Assembly: GCF_023566055.1 (NCBI RefSeq)
Contig: NZ_JALIQP010000001.1
Location: 704,059-768,058 of the forward strand
Length of the DNA stretch: 64,000 nt
From: Halosolutus amylolyticus
GTDB taxonomy: Archaea > Halobacteriota > Halobacteria > Halobacteriales > Natrialbaceae
Direction of reading: 5' to 3'
Position numbers and translations under genes: made by a program. Positions 32,609 through 36,498 of the stretch are shown in pieces; position 1 is the stretch's first letter; every line of letters begins with the position of its first letter. The notes under the pieces were generated by a model, which had not been told where the DNA came from, ran no database searches, and worked only from the letters and a program-made list of their open reading frames with translations.

Positions 32609-33670
32609 TCACTCTTCGGTTCCTCCGTCCGCTTCGATGCCGTCTCGGGATTGCCCGGCGCGACCGCGTCCGGGCCTCGGTACGATCGAAACCAGTTTCG
32701 CTCTGGATAGTTTCCGGGTAGCCAGAACGACGACGTACGCCCCGATCGCCACGACGACGATCGAACCGCCGGCGGCGATGCCGTAGACGTACGAGACCGT
32801 CACGCCGAGGATCGCCGCGAACTCGGCGGCGAGTATCGCGAGGAGGATCGATCGCTTGAAGCTCCGGGCGACGAGCGATGCGGTCGCGACCGGAACGACG
32901 AGCATCGCCACGACCAGGATGACGCCCATGATCTGCATCGCACTGACGACGACGAACGCCGTGAGGACGACCATGAGTCGCTTGTATTGCCGAACGCCGA
33001 TTCTCGCTGCACCGGCGGCAGTCGCATCGAACGTAACGTACAGCAGCGGCCGGTACACCAGCGAGACGGCGCCGCCGACGAGCAGACACATGAAGACGAG
33101 GAGCCCGACGTCCGCCTTCGAAACGGTCGCCAGGCTCCCGAACAGGTAGGCGTCGATCCCGACGGCGATCCCGCCGTCCGTCGCCGTGATGAGAATGCTC
33201 CCGACCGCGAATCCGCCGGTCAACACGATCGCCAGCGACGTATCGCTGTATGCGCCGGCGTGTTCGATCAACAACTCGACGAGCAGGGCCGTGACGACTG
33301 CCACGACGAAGGCTGTCAGCAGCGGCGACAGCGACAGCGAGAACGTCGCGTTGACGAACAGCCCGACGGCGACGCCCGCGAAGGCGGTGTGTGCGAGTGT
33401 ATCGCCGATCATCGAGAGCTCACGATGCACGAGGAACGTCCCGACGAGCGGCCCGATAACGGCGATACATACCGCACCGAGGTACGCTCGCTGCATGTAG
33501 GGGTAGCCGAGCAGCGATACGCCGAGGTGGGTCGCGAGACCGTCCATCGCCGCGCCGTAGACGTCGTCGAGGACCCATTCGAAGAGATCGAACGCGACGC
33601 CGAGGAGCCACGCGACCATCGCCGTACCCTCGGTCGTCGTTTCGGGTGCAGGGGGAGTTCGTGTCGCCAT
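32609..33670 (-). CDS. znuB: Zinc/manganese ABC transporter permease (ZnuB type)
   Basis: 353 residues, about nine hydrophobic helices of the ABC-3 family. Characteristic segments: HRELSMIGDTLAHTAFAGVA (about 83-102) near the first coupling region and MGVILVVAMLVVPVATA in the C-terminal half. An N-terminal stretch of about 17 polar residues precedes the first helix. Imports divalent metal (zinc or manganese) with ZnuA and ZnuC. Follows znuC by 2 bp. Metal specificity is inferred from the His-rich binding protein. Confidence 0.9.
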   Translation of the reverse strand: MATRTPPAPETTTEGTAMVAWLLGVAFDLFEWVLDDVYGAAMDGLATHLGVSLLGYPYMQRAYLGAVCIAVIGPLVGTFLVHRELSMIGDTLAHTAFAGVAVGLFVNATFSLSLSPLLTAFVVAVVTALLVELLIEHAGAYSDTSLAIVLTGGFAVGSILITATDGGIAVGIDAYLFGSLATVSKADVGLLVFMCLLVGGAVSLVYRPLLYVTFDATAAGAARIGVRQYKRLMVVLTAFVVVSAMQIMGVILVVAMLVVPVATASLVARSFKRSILLAILAAEFAAILGVTVSYVYGIAAGGSIVVVAIGAYVVVLATRKLSRAKLVSIVPRPGRGRAGQSRDGIEADGGTEE

Positions 33671-33672
33671 CG

Positions 33673-34446
33673 TCAATGATCGTGGTGAACGACGTGCTGG
33701 TCGGTTCCGTACGCGTCCGCGAGGGCGTCGGTCGCGACGAACTCCGACGGATCGCCGTCGAAGTACAGACGGCGGTTGAGACACGCGATTTCGGTCGCGT
33801 ACGTCGTGACGACGCCGATATCGTGCTCGATGAGGACGATCGTAAGCCCGGACGCGTTCAGGTCGCCGAGGAGCCTGTAGAACGCCTCTCGGGACTCCGC
33901 GTCCACGCCGACGGTCGGTTCGTCGAGTACCAGGAGGTCCGCTTCGGACGCCAACGCGCGGGCGATGAACACGCGCTGTCGCTGGCCGCCGGAGAGCCGG
34001 CCGATGCGGCGGGACGCGAGGTCCGCGATCCCGACGCGTTCCATCGCCTCGTCGATCGCCCGGCGGTCCGCCCGCGAGAACCGGCCGACGAGTCGGTGGG
34101 GGTACCGTCCCATCGCGACCACCTCGCGCACCGTCACCGGCATGTCTCGTGCCGTCTCGGTGGCGTCCTGTGCGACGTATCCGATCCGTTCGCCCTCGTC
34201 GAACTCGTGAGCGCGATCGCCGAAGAGCGTCACCGATCCCGAATCCGGGCGCTCGAGGCCGAGTACCAGTTCGAGGAGCGTGCTCTTGCCGCTCCCGTTC
34301 GGCCCGACCAGTCCGAGAAACGCACCCGGTTCGACGTCGAGCGAAACGTCCTCGAGAACCGGTCGATCGCCGTACCGGAACGAGACTCCGTCGACGCTGA
34401 CGATCGGATCCGCCCCGTCCCACTCGGTCGCTGGTCCGGCGATCAT
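33673..34446 (-). CDS. znuC: Zinc/manganese ABC transporter ATP-binding protein (ZnuC type)
   Basis: 257 residues. Walker A GPNGSGKST, Q-loop VAQDA, signature LSGGQRQRVFIARAL, Walker B LLVLDEPTVGVD, H-switch IEHDIG, and a C-terminal YGTDQHVVHHDH with clustered His that could bind metal. The ATG overlaps the stop of the upstream small gene by 4 nt (ATGA), so translation is coupled. A long in-frame extension to 34629 is the shadow of that small gene. Confidence 0.93.
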   Translation of the reverse strand: MIAGPATEWDGADPIVSVDGVSFRYGDRPVLEDVSLDVEPGAFLGLVGPNGSGKSTLLELVLGLERPDSGSVTLFGDRAHEFDEGERIGYVAQDATETARDMPVTVREVVAMGRYPHRLVGRFSRADRRAIDEAMERVGIADLASRRIGRLSGGQRQRVFIARALASEADLLVLDEPTVGVDAESREAFYRLLGDLNASGLTIVLIEHDIGVVTTYATEIACLNRRLYFDGDPSEFVATDALADAYGTDQHVVHHDH

Positions 34447-34664
34447 CGCATCTCCCCGCGGGCGACGAACGCGTCTCCGGATGCGGTTATCCACGTCGTC
34501 GTCTGGTACGGTGTGGCCACGTCCGGCGGATAGATCGTACAGACAGGCCGTTCCGCAGGGCCGACGACGACTGCCATCAGTCCGGATCGAGACGGATCGG
34601 TCGCTCCCGGATCCGCCGACCCGGTCCACTCCGGTTCGAAGTCGGTCGGCGTCGAATCGGTCAT
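34443..34664 (-). CDS. Small DUF7511-like protein embedded in znu operon
   Basis: 73 residues. The conserved-looking block PVCTIYPPDVATPYQTTTWITASGDAFVARGEMR spans the last half; a short-domain haloarchaeal family with CTIxP...TWITA...FV...MR is recalled as DUF7511. Function unknown, no signal peptide, one Cys, no His cluster. Its ATG overlaps the znuA stop and its stop overlaps the znuC start, both as ATGA, so it is translationally coupled on both sides. This makes it a real gene and a likely functional partner of the transporter or its regulation (inference). Confidence 0.75.
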   Translation of the reverse strand: MTDSTPTDFEPEWTGSADPGATDPSRSGLMAVVVGPAERPVCTIYPPDVATPYQTTTWITASGDAFVARGEMR

Positions 34665-35740
34665 CGCGCGTCGAGGGCCTCCGTTAGCGTTTCGAGGTTG
34701 ATACGCTCCATGACGTCGATGTATCCCCAGCCCTCGTCGGCCCACGCCTGCGTCCGGCCCGGGATCGGCGTCAGCGGGAGCACGTCCCTCGCGTCCGTCT
34801 CTTCGACGAGTTGCTCGGCCGCCGTTTGCGATTCCAGCGGATCGGCACAGACGTACTCGAGGTCGTGTTCCGCGATGACGTCCTGTGCGCGCTCGATGTC
34901 CGCCGGGGTCGGCCGACTGTCGGGCGCCAGCCCTGTCAGCGTCTCGATCTCGAAATCGTACCGGTGACCGAGATACTGAAACGCGTCGTGGCCGGCGACG
35001 AGCACGACGTCCCTGGAGGCGTCTGCGAGCGTCGATCGGAACGTCTCGTCGAGCTCCTCGAGCCTGGTACAGTACTCGTCGGCGTTGTCGACGTACGCGT
35101 CCTCGTTGGCACCGTCGATAGCCACGAACCCGTCGCGGATGGTCTCGACGGCCGTTATCGCACGCGTGGGGTCGAGCCAGAAGTGGGGATCACCGCCGGC
35201 GTGGTCGTGATCGTGGCCGTGATCGTGATCGTCGTGTTCGTCGTGGTCGTGATCGTGATCGTCGTGTTCGTCGTGATCGTCGTGATCGTCGTGTTCGTCT
35301 TCGTGATCGTCGTGGTCGTGATCGTCGTGGTCCTGTTCGTCTTCGTCCTCGTGGCCGACGTCGAGCCGATCGACGCTCGCCCCGGCGTCGACGAGGTGAA
35401 CGTCCGCGTCGTCGTCGGTGAGACTCTCTACGAGATCGTCAGCCCAGGGCTGGAATCCCTCGGACACGCGGACGAAGAGGTCCGACTCGAGGACTTTTCC
35501 CTGGATCCTCGGCCCCGGTTCCCAGCCGTGGCCGTGCTGTCCGATCGGAACCAGCGTCTCCGCCGTTGCGGTTTCGCCGGCGACTGCGCTCGCGAAGTCT
35601 CCGAACACGAAAAACGAGGCCTGGGCCGCCGTCTCCTCGCTGTCGCTGTCGGCTGGCGTCGATACACACCCAGCGATCGCGCCGATCGCGGCGGATCCGA
35701 TCCCCATCTCGATGAATCGTCGACGAGTCTGTCGCACCAT
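34661..35740 (-). CDS. znuA: Zinc/manganese-binding lipoprotein (ZnuA type) with His/Asp loop
   Basis: 359 residues. Tat signal QTRRRFIEMG (residues 4-13) and lipobox AIAGC with Cys25. Cluster A-1 binding protein fold: ligand-region motifs GQHGHGWEPGP (68-78), DPHFWLDP (184-191), AGHDAFQYLGHRYDF and EYVCADPLESQTAA. Residues 130-180 form an extended His/Asp/Glu loop characteristic of zinc-specific members, here unusually acidic. It captures metal outside the cell for ZnuBC. First gene of a four-gene operon; TATA-like TTATTATC lies 24-31 bp upstream. Confidence 0.93.
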   Translation of the reverse strand: MVRQTRRRFIEMGIGSAAIGAIAGCVSTPADSDSEETAAQASFFVFGDFASAVAGETATAETLVPIGQHGHGWEPGPRIQGKVLESDLFVRVSEGFQPWADDLVESLTDDDADVHLVDAGASVDRLDVGHEDEDEQDHDDHDHDDHEDEHDDHDDHDEHDDHDHDHDEHDDHDHGHDHDHAGGDPHFWLDPTRAITAVETIRDGFVAIDGANEDAYVDNADEYCTRLEELDETFRSTLADASRDVVLVAGHDAFQYLGHRYDFEIETLTGLAPDSRPTPADIERAQDVIAEHDLEYVCADPLESQTAAEQLVEETDARDVLPLTPIPGRTQAWADEGWGYIDVMERINLETLTEALDAR

Positions 35741-35763
35741 GTGTTACTAAAACTCCTACAGCA

Positions 35764-35771
35764 GATAATAA
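35764..35771 (-). promoter_or_regulatory. TATA box of znu operon
   Basis: TTATTATC on the minus strand, 24-31 bp before ATG 35740, in the only AT-rich stretch of the divergent spacer. A metal-responsive operator would be expected around it; no clear palindrome was found. Confidence 0.5.
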
Positions 35772-35772
35772 G

Positions 35773-36168
35773 AACTGTGATCTAGACCGTGGAGATTAAT
35801 AGACAAGAGGGTGCCGTCGAATCGATCGGCCCGAGGTCGGGCGGCGGAGACCGAGCGGTGTCCGGGGCTCAAACACGACACCGCCGACTCCGGGCCGGAA
35901 CGCAATCGAGCGGTACCCGGTCCTGCTGTCGCTCGGACGCCGAACCCTCTCGTCGAGGATTCTCCGGCACTCGGCATGGTCGCCGTCTGCCTCGCCGACC
36001 GTCGGCGAGAGCAGTCACGACGTTCGTCGGTTGCGCCGGTCCCGGAACTCTCGCTTCGGTGACCGGCCCGAATTGATATCGCGCTATTTGGTTTAATGAA
36101 GAATTTCGATCGGAATCCCTGAACGTCACGGATTCCTCTCATTCCGGCGTGCTGGCGTCCCTGCGGCC
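35773..36168. other. Divergent intergenic region, no gene seen
   Basis: About 400 bp between the znuA promoter and the promoter at 36169. Frames in both directions give only Arg/Ser-rich low-quality translations. An AT-rich patch at 36068-36112 (TATTTGGTTTAATGAAGAATT) is the only notable composition change. No RNA gene or repeat identified. Confidence 0.4.
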
Positions 36169-36175: not shown

Positions 36176-36198
36176 GACAGTATCGCGTGGGATATCAT

Positions 36199-36498
36199 AT
36201 GGCCGAAGAACAGCAGCAACCACGGCTCGGCTTCGGAACGGAGGTCTACACCGAGGATGGGTCCAGAATCGGACGGATTCGTGGCTTCGACGAGGAGGGG
36301 TTCTACGTCACCCTTCGGGCCGGGATGGGCGGGCTGAGCGTCGAACACGTCCGATCGGGCCACGAGTTCGGCGAGGCCGAACTGATGTGGCGGTGTCTCG
36401 AGTGCGGTGAGATGGGAACTCTCGACCAGGACCTCCCGGAGACCTGCCCGTCCTGTGGAAGCGATCGGGAGGATCTCTACTACTGGACCGAGGACTGA
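36199..36498 (+). CDS. Small PRC-barrel-like plus zinc-ribbon protein (DUF7130 type)
   Basis: 99 residues in two parts. The N-terminal half (GTEVYTEDGSRIGRIRGFD... and RAGMGGLSVEHVRSG) has the look of a PRC-barrel strand set. The C-terminal half is a rubredoxin-like zinc ribbon, WRCLECGEMG ... CPSCGSDRE (Cys pairs near 68 and 86). Recalled as the haloarchaeal family DUF7130; function unknown. ATG 36199 is preferred to the codon four residues earlier because of TATA spacing. Its stop is immediately followed by repeat element copy 1. Confidence 0.8.
   Translation: MAEEQQQPRLGFGTEVYTEDGSRIGRIRGFDEEGFYVTLRAGMGGLSVEHVRSGHEFGEAELMWRCLECGEMGTLDQDLPETCPSCGSDREDLYYWTED

Follow-up and report, generated by a model that had tools for sequence, protein, structure and literature searches.

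A small DUF7511 protein encoded between znuA and znuC as a possible accessory of zinc-starvation genes in haloarchaea

In the stretch of Halosolutus amylolyticus DNA analyzed here (the window, 64,000 nucleotides), a gene for a 73-aa protein lies between znuA and znuC of a zinc-uptake operon and overlaps both. What does such a small protein do, and does it work only with the transporter whose genes enclose it? Accessory small proteins of zinc uptake, such as ZinT and ZrgA, are known from bacteria. Like them, the protein studied here is an extra protein tied to zinc import, but it has 73 aa without His and matches no such family in Pfam or NCBIfam, the ZrgA model being a weak match of ZnuA only. 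It belongs to DUF7511 (PF24351), whose Pfam entry states no function; no paper in the open literature searched names this family, and none among the matches listed deals with this gene. The original prediction took the double overlap as a sign of fixed stoichiometry and of a role with the transporter. We propose that DUF7511 may be a small accessory protein of the haloarchaeal zinc-starvation regulon, acting in trans and independently of the neighboring transporter, a reading to which we give an even chance and which would provide the first testable function for a family without an assigned one.

A DUF7511 gene overlaps both znuA and znuC

The four genes of the operon and both overlaps described here lie on the minus strand. 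znuA (34661..35740) encodes a zinc-binding lipoprotein of 359 aa with an Asp/His-rich loop (PF01297, 200 bits), and it is followed by the DUF7511 gene (34443..34664), by znuC for an ABC ATPase of 257 aa read from the ATG at 34446 (33673..34446; PF00005, 119 bits), and by znuB for an ABC-3 permease with its first ATG at 33670 (32609..33670; PF00950, 188 bits). As predicted, the small gene overlaps its two neighbors by ATGA, once with the znuA stop (34661..34664) and once with the znuC start (34443..34446); the znuC-znuB junction has no such overlap, the first ATG of znuB being located 2 nt past the znuC stop. The predicted gene and its family assignment were borne out as well by the open reading frame, by the agreeing domains of the neighbors, and by a Pfam DUF7511 match of 58.8 bits over residues 29-73 (curated cut-off, 27). 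This match is near full length, running from position 2 to position 47 of a 47-position profile and reaching the C-terminal Arg. DUF7511 was the only Pfam family that matched the protein above its own cut-off, and NCBIfam gave no match.

The protein contains one Cys (C42), no His, 10 Asp/Glu, 4 Arg, and no Lys. It had been described as not an obvious metal carrier, with one Cys and no His cluster, and this description was correct: a conserved Cys/His ligand set was not found, and a metal-carrier role is unlikely because the second-copy operons described below have another residue in place of the single Cys (RTIYP for CTIYP). R73 is invariant in 14 znu-linked sequences, and it is Gln in several members of a wider aligned set (n = 30). 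Over the full-length gene, pN was lower than pS in all 17 printed pairs, while the N-terminal 27 codons alone gave the reverse (pN > pS) in 3 of them. Since pN is below pS and the arrangement recurs in many species, the 73-aa ORF is a real coding gene.

AlphaFold models of the protein were of low confidence (pLDDT 63 for the whole protein and 71 for the domain), and the predicted fold comprises three short strands after a low-confidence N terminus; the first ~27 residues look disordered. When the domain model (pLDDT 71) was compared with the PDB by Foldseek, no match at E <= 0.001 was obtained, the best being 0.83. A profile search of PDB sequences returned, for the most part, designed Pizza propellers matched over 19 residues, with a best E of 0.0019 and no stretch passing alone; both comparisons were set aside as uninformative.

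Linkage of DUF7511 to the znu operon is real but clade-specific

Using the window protein as a query, we searched 125 genomes of the host family at E <= 0.001, and 54 of them gave a match. The E values showed a sharp step, with 12 genomes at E <= 1e-16 and the next match only at 2e-8, and in all 12 the close DUF7511 ortholog is located between znuA and znuC, although only the start of znuC remains after it in G056 and G058. A second, more divergent znuA-DUF7511-znuC operon is present in each of G056, G057, and G058, so that the gene is conserved in 15 operons of these 12 genomes. The DUF7511/znuC junction is ATGA in all 15, and the znuA/DUF7511 junction is ATGA in 11 and TAATG in 4. A larger set of 35 loci, which shares some members with this one, has ATGA at every downstream junction (35/35), and its upstream junction is ATGA in 29, TAATG in 5, and in one case (G009) was left unclassified by the script and reads ATGA on inspection.

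A ZnuB relative was found at E <= 1e-20 in 124 of the 125 genomes (the ZnuB query of 354 aa carried one extra N-terminal residue and the ZnuC query of 256 aa lacked its Met, with an expected effect of nil). Among 30 ZnuB loci fetched, DUF7511 is present in 12 and absent in 18, tblastn and profile agreeing; four further operons (L078-L081) showed no DUF7511 by profile. For a ZnuC+ZnuB tree, we chose 53 operons, 31 with and 22 without DUF7511. The 31, together with one operon without the gene (L052, from G031), form a single clade with a support of 99, a group without DUF7511 adjoins it, and the other 21 sampled operons, all lacking the gene, fall outside. G031 is placed inside the clade in a loss-like position, by nodes with supports of only 40, 41, 44, and 87. 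These data indicated that the linkage is real but clade-specific, and on the simplest reading, DUF7511 would have joined the znu operon once, by one insertion. An obligate Znu subunit should be present in every znu operon, and DUF7511 is missing from 22 of the 53 in the tree.

The linked form also occurs outside the host family. A genome contig collection yielded 29 loci, some of them from organisms already in the host-family set, and by the marker panel, 22 were znu-linked (including L099 and L101, with truncated znuC and no znuB), three were zinc-island loci without znuCB (L113, L114, and L116), one was a zinc-island copy from another DUF7511 subgroup (L119), and L123-L125 had no zinc marker, save a generic ABC ATPase match in two. 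All 21 loci matching residues 1-67 or more (51-73% identity) are in zinc islands, five of the 21 being from organisms also in the host-family set, and L125 (53% over 32 residues) lies outside zinc loci. A plasmid collection contributed 11 records, which belong to Natrialbaceae, Haloarculaceae, and Haloferacaceae; in all nine that were opened (H7 and H10, second strains of species already covered, were left out), the gene is in a zinc operon or a zinc/metal island. The gene thus occurs on megaplasmids and on other contigs of several families, often within a metal island that also carries COG0523 GTPases, an FAD/NAD(P)-binding protein, and a DUF7124 protein; a viral contig collection contained no relative. 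Recurrent island neighbors are COG0523 GTPases (PF02492+PF07683), MoaB, a NifU_N protein, CbiL, an FAD/NAD(P)-binding protein (PF13454), DUF7124, and a C2H2 protein. Two of the DUF7511 operons are irregular, with znuA matches in two pieces at L115:2471-4001 and a short znuC at L108:4219-4860, either of which may reflect decay or a sequencing error.

DUF7511 stays intact where the linked transporter has decayed

In Natrinema limicola and N. hispanicum DSM 18328, znuA and DUF7511 are followed only by the start of znuC, and znuB is gone from the locus. Four other species, three of Haloferax (H. gibbonsii, H. elongans, and H. marisrubri) and Halocatena marina, have an intact DUF7511 gene in a fetched locus without znuB and without a full znuC. 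The gene is preceded there by znuA remnants of 72, 118, 72, and 95 codons, respectively, which end in the ATGA overlap and mostly keep the signal-sequence start, and the znuA promoter element is still recognizable ahead of them. Their internal breakpoints differ, which suggests several deletions. At three of the four loci (L092, L094, and L114), ORFs of 14, 18, and 22 codons begin within the DUF7511 stop and may be znuC stubs; in H. elongans, a 424-codon FAD/NAD(P) gene begins within the DUF7511 stop.

Selection was compared within Haloferax as well as between Haloferax, Halocatena, and one full operon, and it is shown for the Haloferax copies. The two Halocatena copies hardly differ from one another. 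In the comparison of H. marisrubri with H. gibbonsii, DUF7511 gave a pN of 0.098 and a pS of 0.444 (Fisher p 7e-8), while the 72-codon znuA remnant gave drift-like values (pN, 0.300; pS, 0.235), and nonsynonymous change affected 16 of 163 sites in DUF7511 versus 47 of 157 in the remnant (p 4e-6). Since DUF7511 is conserved while the znuA remnant drifts, the gene is under selection without a linked transporter, and since it was kept intact while the adjoining importer genes decayed, a function of its own under zinc shortage is probable. An obligate subunit should have been lost together with the transporter, and DUF7511 is retained in loci that have no znuB or full znuC. Hence, the predicted fixed stoichiometry and role with the transporter are not supported, given these four species and the 18 of 30 ZnuB loci without the gene. 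The decayed loci amount to a natural experiment, in which the transporter was lost and the small gene was kept along with an apparently ribosome-feeding leader frame.

At L113, L114, L092, and L094, znuA has collapsed to short frames that retain a recognizable promoter and the ATGA junction, and these are possible leader ORFs.

Other DUF7511 genes lie behind COG0523 GTPases or away from zinc genes

The Halosolutus amylolyticus genome has six DUF7511 genes above the cut-off, and a survey of 25 genomes including this one gave 52 DUF7511 hits. Zinc markers were scanned in regions of ~6-10 kb for 46 hits and of ~9 kb for five other own-genome hits; in the L197 region, the profile did not recover the DUF7511 gene. 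No zinc marker was nearby for 45 of the 52, and because these lie away from the zinc markers used, the basic activity of DUF7511 is not zinc-specific family-wide. For five non-zinc copies, the Pfam neighbors are an HtrA-like protease (L158), PanB (L073), UbiA (L191), DUF7504 (L194), and a calcineurin-like phosphoesterase (L167). The window protein resembles the family in sequence, as most of 30 aligned members share a C-T-I-Y-P-like stretch, a W-I-T-A-like stretch, and the C-terminal Arg, but its subgroup is fixed in znuA-znuC operons while most surveyed members reside elsewhere. A neighborhood survey, proposed earlier as a way to detect repeated znu linkage, gave a divided answer: the linkage recurs among close orthologs (12/12 in the host family and 21/21 of the genome contig loci matching residues 1-67 or more), and it does not extend to the family, 45 of 52 members being elsewhere. 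It had also been argued that the link would be accidental if close homologs occurred in unrelated places and if znu operons of related species lacked the gene; close homologs were not found in such places.

Six of the 52 DUF7511 genes (L076, L178, L179, L185, L188, and L198) come immediately after a COG0523 GTPase gene, intact or as a remnant; their closest in-frame start codons are no more than about 12 nt from where the GTPase ends. One of these is in Halosolutus amylolyticus, and its junction reads TTGA if TTG is the start; an alternative start is found 23 nt further on. COG0523 GTPases have a role in zinc metabolism, and the open literature searched contained nothing linking haloarchaea, COG0523, and zinc. 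COG0523/CobW-type proteins (PF02492 + PF07683) share the same islands and precede another DUF7511 subgroup directly, but they are themselves the GTPases, and DUF7511 would be a possible partner at most. COG0523 of this type was present in 11 of the 12 linked genomes versus 86 of 113 others, a nonsignificant difference (p 0.30); for the FAD/NAD(P) protein, the counts were 8 of 12 versus 55 of 113 (p 0.36). The latter was rejected as an obligatory partner, since four of the 12 gave no match at E <= 1e-30 and a fifth (G026) has it only in pieces. An H. gibbonsii ORF behind a COG0523 GTPase was considered as DUF7511 and left out of the counts, having no Pfam match.

Several further arrangements were recorded for the family. 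In L156, L158, L161, L162, L165, L172, L184, and L075, a DUF7511 subgroup is downstream of a gene of 350-390 aa, which is Trypsin_2+PDZ in L158, the sole one scanned, and a second small gene (61-65 aa) follows DUF7511. Open frames holding two adjacent DUF7511 matches were seen in L166, L123, and L124. Small ORFs at L076:4474-4767 and L092:6984-7250, both on the minus strand, look alike by eye and follow the COG0523 GTPase or its DUF7511; their genomes are distant, and the L092 ORF has no Pfam match.

A promoter motif is shared with other zinc genes

The znuA promoters of the DUF7511 clade share ATTAA...AATCAYAG...TTATTATCT...TTAACAA-like elements. In the window, promoter comparison identified a conserved element of the znuA promoter, ATCACAGTTCTTATTATC, at 35764..35781 on the minus strand, and a candidate zinc operator, TTACTAA-N14-ATAATA, is located at 35744..35770 on the plus strand with one mismatch to the shared pattern. 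This pattern, TTAAYAA-N14-ATAATA, occurs in the third-znu promoters (L079-L081) and in most of the promoters inspected for COG0523 and COG0523/FAD genes of the survey genomes, and with one mismatch in the L076 promoter. Two AT-rich half-sites 21 bp apart were noted in the window and in L076, L079-L081, L096, L178, L179, L185, L188, L198, and L205, at unrelated zinc genes.

We scanned 106 fetched loci (1.01 Mb) for the relaxed pair, with a 14-nt gap and at most one mismatch. There were 69 matches, 54 of them upstream of znuA, COG0523, or FAD/NAD(P) genes, versus 2 for the reversed pattern, in a motif that was built from some of the loci later scanned and with many of the matches being orthologous promoters. 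Several of the remaining 15 are zinc sites missed by the filter: L079, those of the znuA remnants in L092, L094, L113, and L114, and, in L096 and L204, sites that precede the DUF7511 frame by 30-60 nt. The scan gave no match around DUF7511 genes without a zinc link, none at L078 (the own genome's second znu operon), and none at the promoters of the COG0523 genes in L092, L099, L113, and L114. Gaps of 11, 17, and 20 also match often, because the half-sites are repetitive, and a gap of 13 gave 8 matches versus 7 for the control. In the own genome, the paired pattern gave 8 matches versus 4 for the control, and three of the eight are zinc promoters; this count is weak alone, since the pattern was drawn with all three zinc promoters in view. 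The single element ATCAYARNNNTTATTATC (up to 2 mismatches) did not discriminate in the own genome, with 5 matches versus 5 for the control and an exact match only at the znuA site. With L078 and the four COG0523 promoters excepted, the znuA promoter shares an element with other zinc genes, as expected for membership in one regulon, and as a sequence pattern this motif supports, without proving, co-regulation of zinc genes.

A NikR-type ribbon-helix-helix regulator (PF08753+PF01402) is encoded near a zinc island at L092:653-1081, and weaker matches of this type were seen at L076:7902-8294, L121:1881-2282, and L185:3077-3472. Such proteins near the islands are candidate regulators of the motif. 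The shared motif and the nearby NikR-type regulators would together define a haloarchaeal zinc regulon, for which no description was found among the matches listed in the open literature searched.

Possible role of DUF7511 and competing explanations

How could a gene that is locked between znuA and znuC act apart from their products? In the mechanism that we propose, DUF7511 would be made under zinc limitation from the shared promoter type and would work in trans on an enzyme of zinc allocation, as its adaptor or modulator, and not as a fixed ZnuBC subunit. The most consistent candidate partner would be the COG0523 GTPases, and contact is likely made through the C-terminal domain, which has three short predicted strands and a conserved C-terminal Arg. 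The ATGA coupling may mainly secure co-expression. According to PMC6728339, 13 of 14 overlapping pairs tested (9 from Haloferax volcanii and 5 from E. coli) were strictly coupled, and PMC10666635 states that translational coupling needs overlaps or very short distances. A separate role of the product is argued for by the transporter-decay loci, which keep DUF7511. An extended version of this proposal, speculative and in our judgment rather unlikely as a whole, is that a DUF7511 subgroup would be the first small protein assigned to a zinc-starvation regulon in archaea, having been recruited independently behind ZnuA (import) and behind COG0523 (allocation), where it would modulate the GTPase, with the znuA remnant kept as a drifting leader ORF that delivers ribosomes to DUF7511 by termination-reinitiation.

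The conserved overlaps in the 35-locus set, together with the position between znuA and znuC, could be expected of a regulatory or assembly subunit of Znu made in a fixed ratio with ZnuA and ZnuC, and the enrichment of short overlaps among subunits of heteromeric complexes, as stated in PMC10666635, favors this view. Such a subunit might serve another Znu transporter in trans where the linked znuCB is absent: Haloferax volcanii has two znu operons according to PMC8155600, and DUF7511 of Haloferax could therefore still act on a distant Znu transporter. In the same source, znuA1C1B1 of Haloferax volcanii is, like the operon studied here, a putative zinc ABC importer operon, forming one transcription unit, but its consecutive numbers HVO_2397-2399 appear to leave no annotated small gene between znuA1, znuC1, and znuB1. 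The subunit explanation has to accommodate the 18 fetched ZnuB loci without DUF7511, including L052 (G031) in or beside the DUF7511 clade, the retention of the gene beside a znuA remnant without znuB or full znuC, where it is selected in Haloferax, and the family members behind COG0523 GTPases, and we regard it as possible with a rather low probability. A small regulator of zinc operon expression, providing transcriptional or translational feedback, would fit a gene that overlaps zinc genes and occurs at several zinc loci whose promoters share a motif; this appears improbable, as DUF7511 is the only Pfam match above cut-off, leaving no known DNA-binding domain, the composition is acidic (10 Asp/Glu versus 4 Arg, no Lys) with no His and one Cys, and the NikR-type proteins near some islands are better candidates. 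That DUF7511 is a neutral passenger, trapped in the operon without any function in zinc metabolism and kept only through coupling, would agree with a multi-context family whose surveyed copies are mostly away from zinc markers and with a znu-linked form confined to one clade among the tree operons. It is very improbable in view of the purifying selection on DUF7511 while the coupled neighbor ORF drifts and of its recurrence in several kinds of zinc locus. An accessory protein acting in trans is our preferred reading.

Two other features of the window adjoin or belong to the operon. ZnuA contains a long Asp/His repeat, encoded at about 35190-35345, and some relatives have a ZnuA of at least 500 aa. 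A divergent gene at 36187-36498 on the plus strand, adjoining the znu operon, encodes a DUF7130 protein with a weak rubredoxin-like match.
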